A program made the position numbers and the translations under genes. From Candidatus Tectimicrobiota bacterium (GTDB lineage Bacteria; Tectomicrobia; Entotheonellia; Entotheonellales; Entotheonellaceae), in assembly GCA_026005175.1 (NCBI GenBank), contig BPKO01000002.1, positions 32,501 through 96,500 on the forward strand: a stretch of DNA of 64,000 bases, read 5' to 3'. The notes below the pieces were generated by a model. The model ran no database searches, was not told where the DNA came from, and saw nothing but the letters and a program-made list of their open reading frames with translations. Positions 41,081 through 51,995 of the stretch are shown in pieces. How positions within the stretch are numbered: position 1 is the first letter of the stretch; each line of letters opens with the position of its first letter.

Positions 41081-43756
<2,676 letters not shown>

Positions 43757-43761
43757 GGTTC

Positions 43762-44095
43762 TCACCTCCGCTGTTCTTCACGTGGCTGCATGGCGTAGGC
43801 TTGCAGCTGTTGCACGCGAGCTTCGAGTTCTTCGATGCGCTCGAGCAGATCCAAAATCAGCCCGGCAGCGCTGTAGTTAATGCCCAGGTCCCGCCCGCAG
43901 GCGCAGCACGCGGCGGATTTTGAGTGTGACCTCGGGCGGAAACAACTCGGCATAGCCCTCGGCCGGGTCGATCACCCCCAAAGCCACCAGACGCTGCACC
44001 AGCAGCGGGTGGAGGCCGCAGCGTGCTGCCACTTCCTCCAGGGTCAGAAGGTTCCACGGCCGCTGCCGGGGCACCAGACAGGCGATCCGCGTCAT
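43762..44095 (-). CDS. cbpM: CbpM-like chaperone modulator (MerR-type HTH), one frameshift
   Basis: It starts [20 protein letters not shown], with [20 protein letters not shown] forming a MerR-type helix-turn-helix, then [13 protein letters not shown]. One extra G near 43900 breaks the frame; the other frame continues [20 protein letters not shown] and a coiled coil [13 protein letters not shown]. This is the layout of CbpM, a specific inhibitor of CbpA-type DnaJ proteins, and it directly follows the dnaJ/cbpA-like gene, as in the classic cbpA-cbpM pair. Restored length is about 110 residues. Confidence 0.82.
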
Positions 44096-44110
44096 CGTCT
44101 CTCCCTCCCC

Positions 44111-45059
44111 TCAGCGCGGGCGTGGCTTGAAGTGCGACACCCGGGGCCAGCTCGGCAAAGAGCCGCGCTTCTTCGGGCGTGAGCTGCTCGGGCACGACGA
44201 TTTTGAGCTCAGCGTAAAGGTCCCCCGGCCCCGTGCGCGGATCGGGAAAGCCCTTGCCGCGCAGGCGGATCTTGCGTCCAGAGGAAGAGCCGGGCGGGAT
44301 CTTCACGCTCACCGCCCCTTCCAGGGTGGGCAAGGTAATCTCCGCGCCCAGGGCCGCCTCCCACGGGGTAATGGGCACTGTGGTGTAGAGATCCTTGCCT
44401 TCGAGGCGGAACGTGGGATGCGGCAGCAGCTCGACCACGAGGTAGAGGTCGCCCGGCGGTGCCCCGCCCGTTCCCGGTCCGCCTTGCCCGGCCAGGCGGA
44501 TGCGCTGGCCAGGCCGCACCCCTTTGGGGATGGTAACCATGAGCGTCTTGCTCTGGCCGGTGACGGGATCGGTGAGCGAGATCTCTCGCTGGCCGCCGCG
44601 CGCGGCTTCTTCCAGGGTAAGCGCCAGGCGGGCTTCTCGGTCCTCGCCCCGCGCCCACCCACTCCCACTGCCAGCCGCGGGGTCCGGCACCGCGGCCGGC
44701 CCGGCGCCCGCCGGTACCAAAGAGCTGCTCGAAGAGCGAGCCAAACCCGGAGAAGAGGTCTTCGGCGCCGGCGCCGCGGCCCCACATCGAACCACACCTC
44801 TTCGTAGCCCGGTGGTGGGGTGCCGCCTTCCTGCGCTGCTTTCCAGGCTGCCCCGTAGCGGTCGTACTTGGCGCGCTTTTTCGGGATCCTTGAGCACCTC
44901 GTAGGCTTCGCCGATTTCTTTAAACTTTTCCTCGGCGCCCGGATCCTTGTTCACGTCCGGGTGGTACTTGCGCGCCAGCTTGCGGTATGCCCGGTGGATC
45001 TCTTCCTGGGTGGCGTTCCTTGGCACCCCCAAGATGGCGTAGTAGTCCTTGAAAGCCAT
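44111..45059 (-). CDS. dnaJ: DnaJ/CbpA-type co-chaperone, several frameshifts
   Basis: The J domain is intact ([20 protein letters not shown], with HPD in [20 protein letters not shown]). The Gly/Phe linker (about 44,700-44,880) is broken by at least two indels. The C-terminal peptide-binding domains read [40 protein letters not shown] and [20 protein letters not shown]. No CxxCxGxG zinc fingers are present, so it is CbpA-type. A last indel near 44,143 hides the natural end VSHFKPRPR and TGA at 44,113-44,111. It lies between dnaK and cbpM. Confidence 0.87.
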
Positions 45060-45152: not shown

Positions 45153-47027
45153 TCACTTCTTCTCGGTAAAGTCGGCATCCACCACGTCTTCGCCGCCCGC
45201 GCTGCGGCTGCCGGCGGCCGCACCCGCCCGCCGGTAAGCAGAAGCACTGAGCATGTGCAGCATCTGCTCCAAGTCGCTGGCCAACTCGCGGATACGGGAG
45301 ACCGGCGCGTTCTCTTTTAGTGCCGTGCGCACGTCGGCCACCAGCTGTTCGGCACGCGCCTTTTCGTGCAGCGGCACCTGCTCGCCCATCTCGCGCAGGG
45401 TGCGCTCTACCTGGTAAGCCAGGGAGTCGGCGTGGTTGCGCAGCTCGATCTCCTCGCGCCGCGCCTTGTCTTCGGCCGCATGCGCCTCGGCTTCGCGGAT
45501 CATGCGTTCGATCTCGCTCTTGTCGAGGTTGGTGCTCCCCGAGATGGTGATTTTCTGCTCCTTGCCCGTGTCCTTATCGCGGGCGGTGACGTTGAGGATG
45601 CCGTTGGCATCGATGTCGAACGTCACCTCGATTTGCGGCACGCCGCGCGGTGCCGGCCGGATGCCTTCGAGCCGGAAGCGGCCAAGCATGCGGTTGTCTT
45701 TGGCCAGCTCGCGCTCGCCTTGCAGCACCACGATGTCTACCGCCGTCTGGTTGTCCTCGGCGGTGGTGAAGATTTCGGTGCGGCGTGCCGGAATGGTGGT
45801 GTTGCGCTCGATGATCTTGGTCATCACCCCACCAAGCGTCTCCACTCCCAGCGACAGCGGTGTCACGTCCAGCAGCAAGACGTCGGAGACCTCGCCCTTG
45901 ATGATCGCCGCCTGCACTGCGGCGCCCAGCGCCACCACCTCGTCGGGGTTGACGCTCATGTTGGGTTCCTTGCCGCCGGTGAGGCGCTTTACCAGCGCCT
46001 GCACGGCCGGCATGCGCGTGGCGCCGCCCACCAGGATCACCTCGTCGATGTCCTTCTCGGTGAGCTTGGCATCGGCCAGCGCTTGCTTCACCGGCCCCAG
46101 GCAGCGCTCGACCAGGTCATGGGTGAGGGCTTCGAACTTGGCCCGCGTCAGGGTCATGTTGAGGTGCTTGGGCCCGGTGGCATCGGCGGTGATAAATGGC
46201 AGGCTGATCTGCGTCTGCGCCGCGCTCGAAAGCTCGCACTTGGCCCGCTCTGCCGCCTCCACCAGCCGCTGCAAGGCCTGCGGGTCCTTGCGCAGCTCGA
46301 TGCCGTGTTCTTTCTTGAACTCCTCGGCCAGCCAGTCGACGATGCGCTTGTCGAAGTCGTCGCCACCCAGGTGGGTGTCGCCACTGGTGGCACGCACCTC
46401 GCACACCCCCTCGCCGACGTCGAGGATGGAGACGTCAAAGGTACCGCCGCCCAAGTCAAAGACCATCACCGTTTGGTGCTGCTTTTTGTCCATGCCGTAA
46501 GCCAAGGCCGCGGCAGTGGGCTCGTTGATAATGCGCAGCACGTTGAGGCCGGCGATGGTGCCGGCATCCCGCGTGGCTTGCCGCTGCGCGTCGTTGAAGT
46601 AAGCCGGCACGGTGATCACCGCCTCGGTCACCTTTTCGCCCAGGAACTTGGAGGCGTCCTCCACCAGCTTGCGCAGCACCATGGCCGACACCTCTTCCGG
46701 GGCGATGAGCTTGCCGTGCACTTCGAAGCGTACGGCGTCGTTGGGGCCGCGCACCACTTTGTAAGGCACGTTCTTGATCTCGTCCTGCACTTCGTCCCAC
46801 TTGCGGCCGATGAAGCGCTTGGCCGAGAAAATCGTGGCTTTGGGGTTAAGCACCGCCTGGCGCTTGGCGATTTGCCCCACCAGGCGCTCGCCGTCTTCTT
46901 TGAAGGCCACCACCGAGGGCGTCACCCGCCCCCCTTCGGCGTTGGGGATAATGGTCGGGCGGTCGCCCTCCATGTAAGCAATGGCCGAGTTGGTGGTTCC
47001 CAGATCGATTCCTACGGCTTTAGCCAT
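45153..47027 (-). CDS. dnaK: Chaperone protein DnaK (Hsp70)
   Basis: This 624-residue Hsp70 reads [20 protein letters not shown], with [20 protein letters not shown], the phosphate loop [16 protein letters not shown] and adenosine motif [13 protein letters not shown]. The interdomain linker [19 protein letters not shown] leads to the substrate-binding domain and lid. The C-terminus ends [12 protein letters not shown], as in normal DnaK. ATG 47027 follows GAGGAGGAAG. It is intact, unlike its neighbours, and sits between degP and dnaJ in the island. grpE is not in the window, which suggests that this may be a second, dedicated dnaK. Confidence 0.95.
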
Positions 47028-47065
47028 ATGACTTCCTCCTCTCTGGCATCCTCGCTGTCCGTCAC

Positions 47066-48500
47066 TCAAGGCGAATGACGATGAAGTGAGTGGCCCCCGC
47101 GGTACTCGACCAGCAAGAGCACCCGCTCTTTTGACTTGGCCAGGGCTTGCAGGAACGCTTCCGTGTTGCGCACCGGGGTGCGGTTGACCTCACGGATGAG
47201 CATCCCGGGGCGCAGACCAGCCATGGCGGCGGGGCTGCCAGGCTCGACCTCGGAGACGATGACGCCCTCCGCCTCCTCGTAGCCGAAGCGCTCCGCCATC
47301 TCCGGGGTCAAGTCCTGGACAGCAAACCCGAGCCGCTCAAGGAGCTCTTCCTCAGCAGGCGCTGCCGCCATCTCTTCGGGCAGTTCGCCAATCGTCACGG
47401 TAAGCTCTAGCTGCCGGCCGTTGCGCACCACGGTCACCGTCGCTTTCGTGCCCGGCGGGGTGAGCGACACCGTGTTGCGCAGGTGGGCGGCGTCTTTGAC
47501 CAGCGTGCCGTCAAAGGCCACGATGACGTCGCCGCGTTTCAGCCCGGCCTTGTCCGCTGGCGAGTCCTTGATAACGTCGGCCACCAGCACCCCTTCGCTG
47601 CGCTCTAGCCCGAACGACTTGGCTAGGTCTTCGGTCAAGTCCTGAATGTGAACCCCCAGATAGCCGCGCACCACCTTGCCCCGGGTGATCAGCTGCTGCT
47701 GGATCACCTTGGCCATATTGATGGGAATGGCAAAGCCGATGCCCATGTAGCCACCGCTGCGGGAGAAAATGGCGGTGTTGATGCCGATGACTTCACCGCG
47801 CAGGTTGAGCAGGGGGGCCGCCCGAATTGCCGGGGTTAATGGCGGCATCGGTCTGGATGAAATCTTCGTAATCGACGATGCCCACGCGGCTGCGTCCCTT
47901 GGCGCTTACCACCCCCACGGTGACGGTGTGGACAAGGCCAAAGGGGTTACCCACCGCCACCACCCACTCGCCCACTTCCAGGGCATCGGAGTCGCCCAGG
48001 GGCAGGGTGGGCAAGTTGTCGTCTTTAATTTTGATCACCGCCACGTCCGACTTGGGGTCGGTGCCGATCAGCTTGGCTTCATACTCGCGGCCGTCGGCCA
48101 GCTTGACGGTGATGCGGTCTGCTTCCCCCACCACGTGGTGGTTGGTAAGGATGTAGCCATCTTGCGAGACAATGAAGCCCGAGCCCTGCCCCATCTGCCG
48201 GAAGCGCCGCGGCTGCTGCGGGAAGCGCCAGCGGAAGAAGCGGCGGAAGAACTCCTCGTTAAACAGATCAAACGGGTCCTCAAAAGGGCCGCGGCGCTCG
48301 ACGGTCCTCTCTACCTGGATGTAGACCACGGCCGGGATGGCCTGCTTGGCCACTTGCGTAAAAGCCTGCGACAGCTGCTGCACGGCCTCGGACTGGGCCG
48401 GCAGGGCCGCTGCCGGCCGGCCAAGGCCGGCAGCGGCCAGAACTGCCGCGGCCAGGGCCAAACAGACACGTGCCTGATGCGCGAGCCGGATCCGTTTCAT
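47066..48500 (-). CDS. degP: Periplasmic serine protease DegP/HtrA, one frameshift
   Basis: A signal peptide ([20 protein letters not shown], cleavage near ALPAQS) is followed by a trypsin-like domain with His in [15 protein letters not shown], Asp in [16 protein letters not shown] and Ser in INPGNSGGP. The frame breaks right after this motif near 47,815 (one extra base in GGGGGGCC); it resumes [20 protein letters not shown]. Two PDZ domains follow ([20 protein letters not shown] and a second starting [18 protein letters not shown]). Restored length is about 477 residues. It degrades or chaperones misfolded envelope proteins. Confidence 0.9.
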
Positions 48501-48528: not shown

Positions 48529-48999
48529 TCAGCCGCGGATTTTCACCTTGATGCGCCGTGCCTTGGCCTGCTCGGTCTTGGGCAAGGTGACGCGCAGGAC
48601 GCCGTTTTTGTACCGGGCAGTAGCGCGGTCGGCGTCTACCTCGCAGGGCAAGGGCACGGTGCGCACAAAAGCGCCGTAGCTGCGCTCGGCGTAGTAGTAG
48701 TGCCGGCCTTTTTCTTCGGCGCTGCGGCGCTTTTCGCCGCGCAGCACCAAGTAGTCGCCGGTCACTTCCACGGTGAAGTCGTCTTTGTCCAGGCCGGGAA
48801 GCTCGGCCACCACGATGACCTCGTCGTCGGTTTCCTCGAGATCAATCAGGGGTCCACCGCCGATGATCAGCGACGGCGCCCAGAATTCCTCATCCTCCGG
48901 CGCACGGCGCCGCGGCAGCCAGCGGTCCAGCACGCGGTGAATGTCGTCCCGCAGGCGCGAAAGCGCCTGTCGCCATGGAACAGGAAGCCACTGTGCCAT
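48529..48999 (-). CDS. Small heat-shock protein Hsp20 (third of three)
   Basis: This 156-residue sHSP has an alpha-crystallin domain ([20 protein letters not shown] to [12 protein letters not shown]) and a C-terminal I-K-V motif (RRIKVKIRG). The N-terminal arm is Arg/Trp-rich. sHSPs hold unfolding proteins for refolding by DnaK and ClpB, encoded downstream. It differs clearly from the other two Hsp20 copies here, so it is not a recent duplicate. Confidence 0.92.
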
Positions 49000-49056: not shown

Positions 49057-49455
49057 TTACGCCACTTTTACTTCGATCTTGCGCGGCTTGGCCTCCTCTG
49101 CCTTGGGCAGGTGGAGGGTCAAGACGCCGTGCTTGAGTTCTGCCGTAATGCGGGATTCGTCGATTTTTTCCGTGAGCTCGAACTGCCGGAAGAAGTTAAC
49201 CAGCTCGTATTCGCGGTAAATGGGGTCGGCCTGCACCGCGGGCCGCGCCCGACCGCGAATGGTCAGCACGTGGTTGTCAACGCGCACTTCCAAGTCGTCT
49301 TTGCTCACCCCTGGCAAATCGGCCATCACCACCAGTCCCTCAGGGGTCTCGTAGATGTCCACCGGCGGCGCCACGTAGCGCTCCCGCTCCCGGGTGCCTT
49401 CTGCCGTGGGCGCCACCTGCTGCGTCTGCTGGGTTGCCACCGTCCGTTCTACCAT
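49057..49455 (-). CDS. Small heat-shock protein Hsp20 (second of three)
   Basis: This 132-residue sHSP has a Gln/Thr-rich N-terminal arm (MVERTVATQQTQQVAPTAEG), an alpha-crystallin domain with VDIYETPEGLVVMADLPGVS and LKHGVLTLHLPK, and a C-terminal I-E-V motif (RKIEVKVA). ATG 49455 follows AGGAGGAAC; a longer frame adds seven residues. It lies between the other two Hsp20 genes. Confidence 0.92.
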   Translation of the reverse strand: MVERTVATQQTQQVAPTAEGTRERERYVAPPVDIYETPEGLVVMADLPGVSKDDLEVRVDNHVLTIRGRARPAVQADPIYREYELVNFFRQFELTEKIDESRITAELKHGVLTLHLPKAEEAKPRKIEVKVA

Positions 49456-49481
49456 CGCCGTTCCTCCTGTGCACAATGCGG

Positions 49482-49934
49482 TTAGGAGACCTGCACGTTA
49501 ATTTGCTTGGGTTTGACACGTTCGGCCTTGGGCAGGGTGACCACCAGCAGGCCGTTTTTGTAGTCGGCCCTCACGTTGTTCTCGTCCACCTCGAGCGGCA
49601 GCTCGATGGTGCGCACGAAGCGGCCCGTGGCGCGCTCGCTGCGGTGGAAGGCCTCAGGCCTGACATCCTCCGGCACCCGCCGCTTTTCCCCGGCCAAGGT
49701 GAGGGTGTTGCGCAGCACCGAGATATCCAGCGAGGCCGGATCCACACCTGGCGCCAGCGCCTCCACATAGAGGGCGTCGCGGTCGGCGTAAATGTTGACC
49801 AGCGGGTAGCGCCGTGCGGCACGCCCGGGCAAAAACGCAGTGCGGAAAAAGGGCTCGGTACGGAAGCCAAAGTCTTCAAAGGCGCGGTCGATTTCGCGCC
49901 GCAGCGCCTCCATGGTTTCCCACAAGTCAGCCAT
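49482..49934 (-). CDS. Small heat-shock protein Hsp20 (first of three)
   Basis: This 150-residue sHSP begins MADLWETMEALRREIDRAFE, then FFRTAFLPGRAARRYPLVNI, an alpha-crystallin domain ending YKNGLLVVTLPKAERVKPKQ and the C-terminal I-N-V motif. A strong GAAGGAGGTGAG precedes the ATG. It is the first gene behind the sigma-54 promoter at 50006-50023, with a leader of about 60 bases. Confidence 0.93.
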   Translation of the reverse strand: MADLWETMEALRREIDRAFEDFGFRTEPFFRTAFLPGRAARRYPLVNIYADRDALYVEALAPGVDPASLDISVLRNTLTLAGEKRRVPEDVRPEAFHRSERATGRFVRTIELPLEVDENNVRADYKNGLLVVTLPKAERVKPKQINVQVS

Positions 49935-50005: not shown

Positions 50006-50023
50006 AAGCAAGAGGCGTGCCAA
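50006..50023 (-). promoter_or_regulatory. Sigma-54 (-24/-12) promoter of the hsp20-degP-dnaK operon
   Basis: On the minus strand the sequence is TTGGCACGCCTCTTGCTT. It matches the sigma-54 consensus TGGCACG-N4-TTGCW at every fixed position, with GG and GC at the required ten-base spacing. Transcription would start near 49,995, about 60 bases before the first Hsp20 ATG. The gene for a GAFTGA-type sigma-54 activator lies just upstream, at 50432-51995. Confidence 0.88.
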
Positions 50024-50082
50024 CTCTGTAAGTCGTTGATAATTCGAGTTTTTTCAATTCTCCCGATTGCAATCCGGGGCAG

Positions 50083-50135
50083 TGCGACGTCGCGTGCGAC
50101 GTCGCAGCGTTGCGTGCGACGGGTTGCCTGCGACG
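50083..50135. promoter_or_regulatory. Repeated TGCGAC boxes, putative enhancer (UAS) for the sigma-54 activator
   Basis: Two copies of the palindrome GCGACGTCGC (50084-50093 and 50096-50105) are followed by two direct repeats, TTGCGTGCGAC (50110-50120) and TTGCCTGCGAC (50125-50135), 15 bases apart. They lie about 90-140 bases upstream of the predicted sigma-54 start, the usual distance for enhancer sites. The binding protein is inferred to be the adjacent regulator. Confidence 0.6.
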
Positions 50136-50139
50136 GGCG

Positions 50140-50439
50140 TCAGAGGCCGCAGTCGCGCAGGCGCTGGAGCAACTCGGCCGGGGTGGCACGCCCGATGAGG
50201 CGAAAGAGGGGGCGGCTGCGGTAGTAGACGACCAAGGCGGGCGAGCCGTAAATGCCGTGAGCTTGCGCCCAGTCGCGGCAGTCGGCCAGGGCAAGGCGAA
50301 AGACCGGCACGCGTCCGAAGCGTTCGATGTCGCGCAGGAGACGGTCCATCTCGGTGCCCGGCGCGTGATCGTCTTCCCAGACAACGACCACTGCCAGACC
50401 CGCATAGCGGCGGAGAAACGCCTCCAGCTCGTCAAGCAT
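50140..50439 (-). CDS. Thioredoxin-fold protein without CxxC
   Basis: This 99-residue protein has a thioredoxin-like pattern: [20 protein letters not shown] in place of the W.xxCGPC loop, [20 protein letters not shown], and the cis-Pro segment [20 protein letters not shown]. The active-site Cys pair is missing, so it cannot be a standard disulfide reductase. It overlaps the end of the sigma-54 regulator gene by eight bases and so is co-expressed with it. A chaperone-like or sensor role in the stress regulon is inference. Confidence 0.7.
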
Positions 50440-51995
50440 GGCCTGACTCCGAGGGCACCGTGCCGGCTTGAGCCATGGCTTCGAGGTCGGTACGGGTCAT
50501 GCCCAGGGCTTTCAGGTGCCGGTAAAGCGTGGCCTTGTGCACGCCCAGCCGGCGCGCGGCCGCCGTCAGGTTTCCGCCTGTCTGACAAAATGCCGCGGCA
50601 ATCCGCTCGCGGGTGAGCGGCGCCTGCCGCACGGCCAGCGGGCGGCGGTCGACGCGCGTGGCCGGCTCGGCTGCGGCCGCTTCCGACAGCGCCGAGAGGG
50701 CAGGCAGCGCGGCCCGCGCCGGCGGCGGCGGCACCAGGGGGGACGAGGCCACCCGTCGCGTGGCGACGTTCCAGGCGCCGGGGAAGAAACGCCAGCGCTC
50801 TTCTACCCATTCCTCAAAGGCGCGGCGCCCGATGACCTCTCCCGTGGCTTCCACGTAGACGCGCTCGAGCACGTTGCGCAGTTCGCGCACGTTGCCGGGC
50901 CAGCTGTAGCTCTGCAGCAACGCAATCGCCTCGGGGGTCAGGCCGCGCACGGGCCGCCCGTATTTTTGCTGCAGCTGCTTCAGGAAGTAGGCCACCAGCA
51001 GCGGAAGGTCTTCCAGGCGCTCGTGCAGCGGCGGCATGTGCAGGCGCAAGACGGCCAGGCGGTGGTAGAGGTCGGCACGAAACGTGCCGCGCTCTACCGC
51101 CAGCTCCAGCGGCACGTTGGTGGCGGCAATGAGGCGGACGTCAACGGGCAAGGGCTGCTCGGCGCCCACGCGTTCGATCACCCCCTCTTCGAGCACCCGC
51201 AGGAGCTTGGCCTGCGTCGTCACGGGCAGCTCGCCGATCTCGTCGAGAAAGAGGGTACCGCGGTGTGCCCGCTCGAAGCGTCCCTTATGGGTGCGGATGG
51301 CACCGGTAAAAGCGCCGCGCTCGTGGCCGAACAGTTCCGATTCCAGCAGTTCGCTCGACAGGGCGGCGCAATTGACTGCCACAAAGGGCTCTTCGCGGCG
51401 GGGACTGCAGGCGTGGAGGGCACGGGCTGCCAGCTCCTTGCCCGTTCCGGTCTCGCCGGTAATCAGCACCGGCGCTCCCGTGGGACCGTACACCTCGATT
51501 TTACGGATGACGGCGCGCAGCGCGGCCGAGCGTCCCACCAGCCCGTAGAAGTCGCGCACCGCCGGCGACTCGACGGTGACGGCCGGGGGCCGCGACTTCT
51601 TCCAAGCGCAGGGCCACCACGGCTTGCAGCGCCGCCGCTCGCCGCAGCCTGAGTCCAGCCTGCACCAGCACGGTGCGCGGGGTGCCGGTGGCGTCGCGGA
51701 AGCTCAGGCGGTAATCGCGCACCGGGAACCCTGAGGCCAGCACTTCTTCAACCACCACGCCGAGCCCGGGAATGATCGGTTCCACCGTCTCGGCCAGCGG
51801 ACGCCCGCGCAGTGCCTCGACCGGGCGGCCGGTCCACGCCGCCACGTGTGGCGCCACCTCTTCCACCACCGGCGTGCCGTCGTCAAGAAAGGCGACGATG
51901 AGCTCCGGCGTAATGGGCGCCAGCGGCGCCGCCTCCTGCGCGCGCCTGATGGGTGCCAGGCGCCCTGCTGGCTTCTCTGTCGGCATGGGTTCCAT
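50432..51995 (-). CDS. Sigma-54-dependent transcriptional activator (PAS-AAA-Fis HTH), one frameshift
   Basis: The N-terminal 130 residues form a PAS-like sensor ([40 protein letters not shown]). One extra C near 51,590 (GGCCCCCGGCC) breaks the frame; it resumes [20 protein letters not shown]. The AAA+ domain has Walker A GETGTGKE, the sigma-54-contacting GAFTGA loop, Walker [11 protein letters not shown] and [17 protein letters not shown] Fis-type HTH ([20 protein letters not shown]) ends the protein. No receiver domain is present, so the signal is probably a ligand or redox state sensed by PAS. It most likely drives the sigma-54 promoter at 50006-50023. Confidence 0.9.

Follow-up and report, generated by a model that had tools for sequence, protein, structure and literature searches.

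A predicted sigma-54 promoter and candidate enhancer upstream of an hsp20-led chaperone operon in the Candidatus Entotheonella family

Promoters recognized by sigma-54 are silent without an activator. Among stress operons, the enterobacterial phage shock (psp) operon is driven by sigma-54 together with IHF under the control of PspF, an activator that has no N-terminal sensor domain, and what is switched on there are membrane-stress proteins of the PspA type. It is uncommon for an entire chaperone operon to be under sigma-54. Well-supported sigma-54 control of cytosolic chaperones is rare: the ibpB promoter of E. coli failed when tested by ChIP, and the further literature cases that we located are either predictions or tandem promoters. 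For ibpB, a gene of the Hsp20 family, a sigma-54 promoter had been proposed; ChIP detected only background sigma-54 signal there, and for this reason the authors consider the promoter to be misannotated (PMC4591121). In a survey from 2025, heat-shock COGs are predicted to be under sigma-54, with enrichment in Planctomycetota and Bacteroidota and with predicted targets that include IbpA-type Hsp20, DnaK, DnaJ, GrpE and GroEL (PMC12316311). The hrcA-grpE-dnaK operon of Chlamydia carries tandem sigma-66/sigma-54 promoters (PMC8762339). Neither hsp20 nor clpB turned up when the text of the paper on the sigma-54 regulome of Desulfovibrio vulgaris was searched (PMC4641369), and no earlier description of sigma-54 control of a chaperone operon was found in the open-licence literature for the lineage discussed here.

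We analyzed a stretch of 64,000 nucleotides, referred to here as the window, which is assigned to the Candidatus Entotheonella family; its nearest named records are the uncultured Candidatus Entotheonella chromosomes OX639990 (G002) and OY282375 (G003). Judging from the sequence, it is probable that the spacer upstream of hsp20 (Table 1) is a sigma-54 promoter with an enhancer that drives a chaperone operon, that the likeliest activator is the neighbouring PAS-AAA+-Fis protein, and that the same control operates in the Entotheonella family.

Table 1. Features of the chaperone locus and of the region upstream of it.
Feature	Coordinates	Strand	Basis or remarks
Sigma-54 promoter TTGGCACG-CCTC-TTGCT	50007..50023	minus	exact consensus match, unique in window
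TATCAACGACTTA, IHF consensus separating promoter from array	50029..50041	minus	only exact WATCAANNNNTTR in window
Enhancer palindromes of 12 bp, TGCGACGTCGC(G/A), two side by side	50083..50106	no strand	read directly; motif kept before hsp20 in relatives
Two direct repeats TTGC(G/C)TGCGACGGG and further TGCGAC half-sites	50110..50137	no strand	read directly
Gene separating activator from array; product has a thioredoxin fold but no CxxC	50140..50439	minus	orthologues in G002/G003; model pLDDT 88.6
Enhancer-binding activator: AAA+ with GAFTGA, Fis-type HTH	50432..51559	minus	PF00158 1.5e-68, PF02954; orthologues 64-65% identical
PAS-like N-terminal domain of this activator, other frame	51573..51983	minus	matches N-terminus of unbroken orthologue at 44% identity; PAS fold
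hsp20, first operon gene	49482..49934	minus	PF00011 7.1e-19
hsp20, second copy	49057..49476	minus	PF00011
hsp20, third copy	48529..48999	minus	PF00011
htrA/degP-type protease, frame-broken	47066..48500	minus	trypsin and PDZ domains
dnaK	45153..47069	minus	named by reading the translation, not by family search
dnaJ, frame-broken	43857..45059	minus	named by reading the translation, not by family search
clpB, several frame breaks	41081..43765	minus	ORFs; 46% identity to G003 ClpB, residues 8-879

The minus-strand sequence of the promoter, TTGGCACGCCTCTTGCT, constitutes a perfect -24/-12 element, in which the GG and GC doublets of TTGGCACG-N4-TTGC are present at the exact spacing and with zero mismatches. 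A scan of the 64-kb window for TTGGCACGN4TTGC returned TTGGCACGCCTCTTGC (50008-50023, minus strand) as the sole zero-mismatch match, in agreement with the original prediction that the promoter matches the consensus at all fixed positions. Because matches with up to two mismatches occur at the level of chance (10 found vs 10.9 expected in the window), only the exactness of this match is informative. Placing -12 at the C of the GC doublet (50008) puts the expected start of transcription at approximately 49996; the distance from the promoter to the hsp20 start is 72 nt. Across the 4 Mb of the assembly (G000) there are 4 exact matches to the sigma-54 pattern, and 55 sites have no more than one mismatch vs 9 for a reversed control pattern. 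Several of these sites precede pilin-like, UspA-like or periplasmic ORFs (identities assigned by eye), a pattern that fits a genome in which sigma-54 is in use. The 16-mer TTGGCACGCCTCTTGC recurs exactly at L066 6884-6900 (G000:C1:464883); this copy precedes a short secreted protein and is without an enhancer pair, and it was set aside. No match to the CIRCE operator TTAGCACTC-N9-GAGTGCTAA with three or fewer mismatches was found in the window.

Upstream of the promoter, the two palindromes and two TTGC(G/C)TGCGAC repeats that had been described are all present at 50083-50137. Exact occurrences of GCGACGTCGC are limited to two in the window, at 50084-50093 and 50096-50105, and the two copies of the direct repeat, read directly, are TTGCGTGCGAC at 50110-50120 and TTGCCTGCGAC at 50124-50134. 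Measured from the expected +1, the array lies ~88-141 nt upstream, which bears out the earlier figure of about 90-140 bases, and the promoter, the array and the activator gene, with its AAA+ ORF on the minus strand, do fall within 2 kb. The IHF consensus that separates the promoter from the array is an addition to what had been noted; exact matches to WATCAANNNNTTR number 1 in the 64-kb window vs 0.17 expected. IHF-like sites with one or two mismatches are found at a similar distance from the sigma-54 site of hsp20 in G002, in G003 and in two units of G001. The G001 assembly encodes one IHF-beta that scores over one cut-off, and G000 has two HU/IHF-family genes, neither of which is above the IHF cut-offs; an HU-like protein may therefore serve at 50029-50041.

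The operon is longer than the earlier description allowed, since the three hsp20 genes are followed by htrA, dnaK, dnaJ and clpB at short gaps, all on the minus strand. From strand and spacing, we predict that hsp20 x3-htrA-dnaK-dnaJ-clpB form one transcript. Reading frames are broken at ~51585 (activator), 47800 (htrA), 44850 (dnaJ) and 41081-43765 (clpB), and at least one of these breaks is in a homopolymer run; they probably arose as indels during assembly and may be part of the reason why its completeness is only 77%. The break in the activator, near 51,585, is likely due to a single base gained or lost within a run of CCCCC, and assembly error is its simplest reading because htrA, dnaJ and clpB are broken similarly.

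The N-terminal domain that this break splits from the activator had been overlooked. A model built from the G002 orthologue shows a PAS fold (pLDDT 71), with PAS and LOV domains as its PDB matches; likewise, the PDB matches of the thioredoxin-fold protein model are thioredoxins. G002 and G003 both retain the activator together with the thioredoxin-like gene. When genome_contigs were searched with the thioredoxin-like protein, only the two Entotheonella chromosomes, OX639990 and OY282375, were recovered, and a search of viral_contigs returned no match. Alignment of the activators revealed GAFTGA in the loop here vs GAFTSA in the G002 and G003 orthologues. An activator from G032 (45% identity) was rejected as an orthologue, as it is a response regulator and has neither thioredoxin-like nor hsp20 neighbours in the locus examined.

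From these sequences it is plausible that the neighbouring activator binds the 50083-50137 array. Alternatively, the promoter and enhancer could be real but driven by another enhancer-binding protein, with the neighbouring activator and its thioredoxin-fold partner controlling something else: in both complete relatives, G002 and G003, the activator is unlinked to hsp20, yet the promoter and motif of hsp20 are retained, and about ten sigma-54 activators are encoded in G000 (G001 likewise carries about ten). We consider this unlikely, because the activator adjoins the array in the window, because only 3-4 activators in G002 and G003 pass a threshold of E<=1e-60 and the orthologue of the window activator is the closest match among them, and because its recognition helix is near-identical across the genera that carry the enhancer motif. 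These same points make the neighbouring activator the best candidate.

The motif itself recurs before hsp20 in relatives. The hexamer TGCGAC/GTCGCA, defined from the window alone, is present in 10 copies in five relative hsp20 promoters (200 bp each) vs 0.93 expected, a count reached in 0 of 3000 shuffles, and the layout TGCRRCGTYRCA-N4-GTYGCA ~90 bp upstream is common to four of the five. The combination of a sigma-54 core and GCRACGTYGC in the right arrangement occurs twice in five genomes (~22 Mb), both times before hsp20, and 0 times for the control; this count is no independent test, because the pattern was derived from these same sites. The expectation that the TGCGAC array would be found before hsp20 genes elsewhere held in two further genera but not at G001:C163 nor in the G004 units examined, where the enhancer motif was not found, so that some sigma-54 hsp20 promoters do not use this enhancer. 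In G002 and G003, an exact copy of the enhancer palindrome pair, in inverted-repeat form, lies between clpB and the next gene (L115 3923-3953 and L116 3686-3716), and no strong sigma-54 site was found beside it. Both the motif-free promoters and this pair after clpB would fit an array that is the site of some other regulator, such as a repressor, with the enhancer of the sigma-54 promoter situated elsewhere. However, in every motif-bearing hsp20 unit the motif is positioned ~70-96 bp upstream of the promoter, a typical enhancer distance, and we regard a role other than that of enhancer as distinctly improbable.

The sigma-54 element is also conserved. We scored sites by a hand-made consensus weighting, with no trained matrix, and took a score of >=0.94 as near-perfect. 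The five genomes contain 15 hsp20 units, window included, as grouped by position by the analyst, and a near-perfect site precedes the start in nine of them, with all five genomes represented: the window, G001:C163, G001:C183 (an hsp20-hsp20-clpB unit), G001:C233 (an hsp20-hsp20-dnaK unit), G002, G003, and G004:C616, C692 and C456. These nine are only partly independent of one another, given that G002 and G003 belong to a single genus and that there are paralogues among the units. The other six units are without a strong sigma-54 site, and a site by hsp20 at G000:C11:118096 was left out of the count because it precedes a different ORF. In the background set, 4 sites scored >=0.94 in 576 kb strand-bases, or 0.0014 per 200 bp (~0.14% of stretches), a rate that is slightly overestimated, and hence conservative, because the set takes in L094, which is the window itself. 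The clpB genes of G002 and G003 have their own sigma-54 site. This conservation in relatives is an addition to the original prediction, and, with nine of 15 units carrying the site and TGCGAC/GTCGCA recurring, it supports a sigma-54 promoter and upstream enhancer before hsp20. At G001:C30 (L117 4938-5243), a perfect sigma-54 site precedes a small protein (~62 aa, by eye) with no function assigned, and TGCGACGTCGCATGCGAC is located just past the stop codon.

The gene for sigma-54, rpoN, was found in G002-G004 and was not found in G001 or in G000, the 77% complete assembly of the window. In G003, rpoN is adjoined by der, for which there was no match in G000, G001 or G004. The missing der suggests that the absence of rpoN from G000 and G001 reflects an assembly gap rather than real loss, but the argument is not strong because G004 has rpoN and yet no der match. 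Neither gene is matched in G000 and G001 despite their approximately ten sigma-54 activators, and G000 is rich in -24/-12 sites. The least credible alternative, that the -24/-12 match arose by chance and hsp20 expression relies on a vegetative promoter, on one of the sigma-32 type or on transcription running through from the activator gene, could draw on the rpoN result, on the chance-level matches with two mismatches and on our finding no strong terminator between the upstream genes and hsp20, but it is very hard to reconcile with sites at nine of 15 hsp20 units vs 0.0014 expected for each, with the shared enhancer motif and spacing, and with a search between the activator gene and hsp20 that found no sigma-70-type promoter.

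The elements described above, their order and their conservation are observed; for the sigma-54 promoter and enhancer that they point to, we propose the following mechanism, which we infer as a whole, including the identity of the activator and the action of IHF. Sigma-54 RNA polymerase would sit closed at TTGGCACG-N4-TTGC, oligomers of the enhancer-binding protein would occupy the TGCGAC/GTCGCA array ~90-140 bp upstream, and IHF, or an HU/IHF-like protein, would bend the AT-rich DNA between them. Hydrolysis of ATP by the activator, most likely the PAS-AAA+-Fis protein encoded directly upstream and perhaps tuned by its thioredoxin-fold partner, would open the promoter, and the three hsp20 genes, htrA, dnaK, dnaJ and clpB would then be transcribed. 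The inducing signal is probably protein-folding or redox stress, and, given the silence of sigma-54 promoters that lack their activator, the chaperone response would be tightly off and strongly inducible. Elsewhere in the Entotheonella family, hsp20 units would be subject to the same control, and clpB units to sigma-54. A broader proposal, which we advance only tentatively and hold to be somewhat doubtful, is that the main cytosolic heat-shock response of the Entotheonella lineage (Hsp20, ClpB, a DnaK-DnaJ pair and HtrA) might be governed by sigma-54 and a single dedicated enhancer-binding protein of the PAS type, together with a thioredoxin-fold partner, in place of sigma-32 or HrcA.

At this locus the promoter, the enhancer, an IHF-like site and a candidate for the activator are all legible in one place, with promoter and enhancer kept across genera. 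It offers an example, open to testing, of a chaperone regulon that would be ATP-dependent and driven by an enhancer in an uncultured sponge-symbiont lineage. The promoter logic is textbook, and what is unusual is that a chaperone operon is its target and that this is kept in the lineage. Promoters of the NtrC/NifA/PspF type likewise combine a -24/-12 element, paired palindromes ~100 bp upstream, an IHF consensus between the two and a linked AAA+ activator with GAFTGA and a Fis HTH; the predicted system differs from them in having a chaperone-protease operon as its target and an enhancer sequence of its own, GCRACGTYGC. With the psp operon it would have in common a stress operon driven by sigma-54 and IHF, whereas its targets are Hsp20, DnaK and ClpB rather than PspA-type proteins. 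The predictions of the 2025 survey are at the level of COGs and concern other phyla, and Entotheonella is unmentioned there (PMC12316311). The hrcA-grpE-dnaK operon of Chlamydia is similar in that a sigma-54 promoter serves a chaperone operon, but it differs in its tandem vegetative promoter and HrcA, and in an activator, AtoC, that is a member of a two-component system (PMC8762339).
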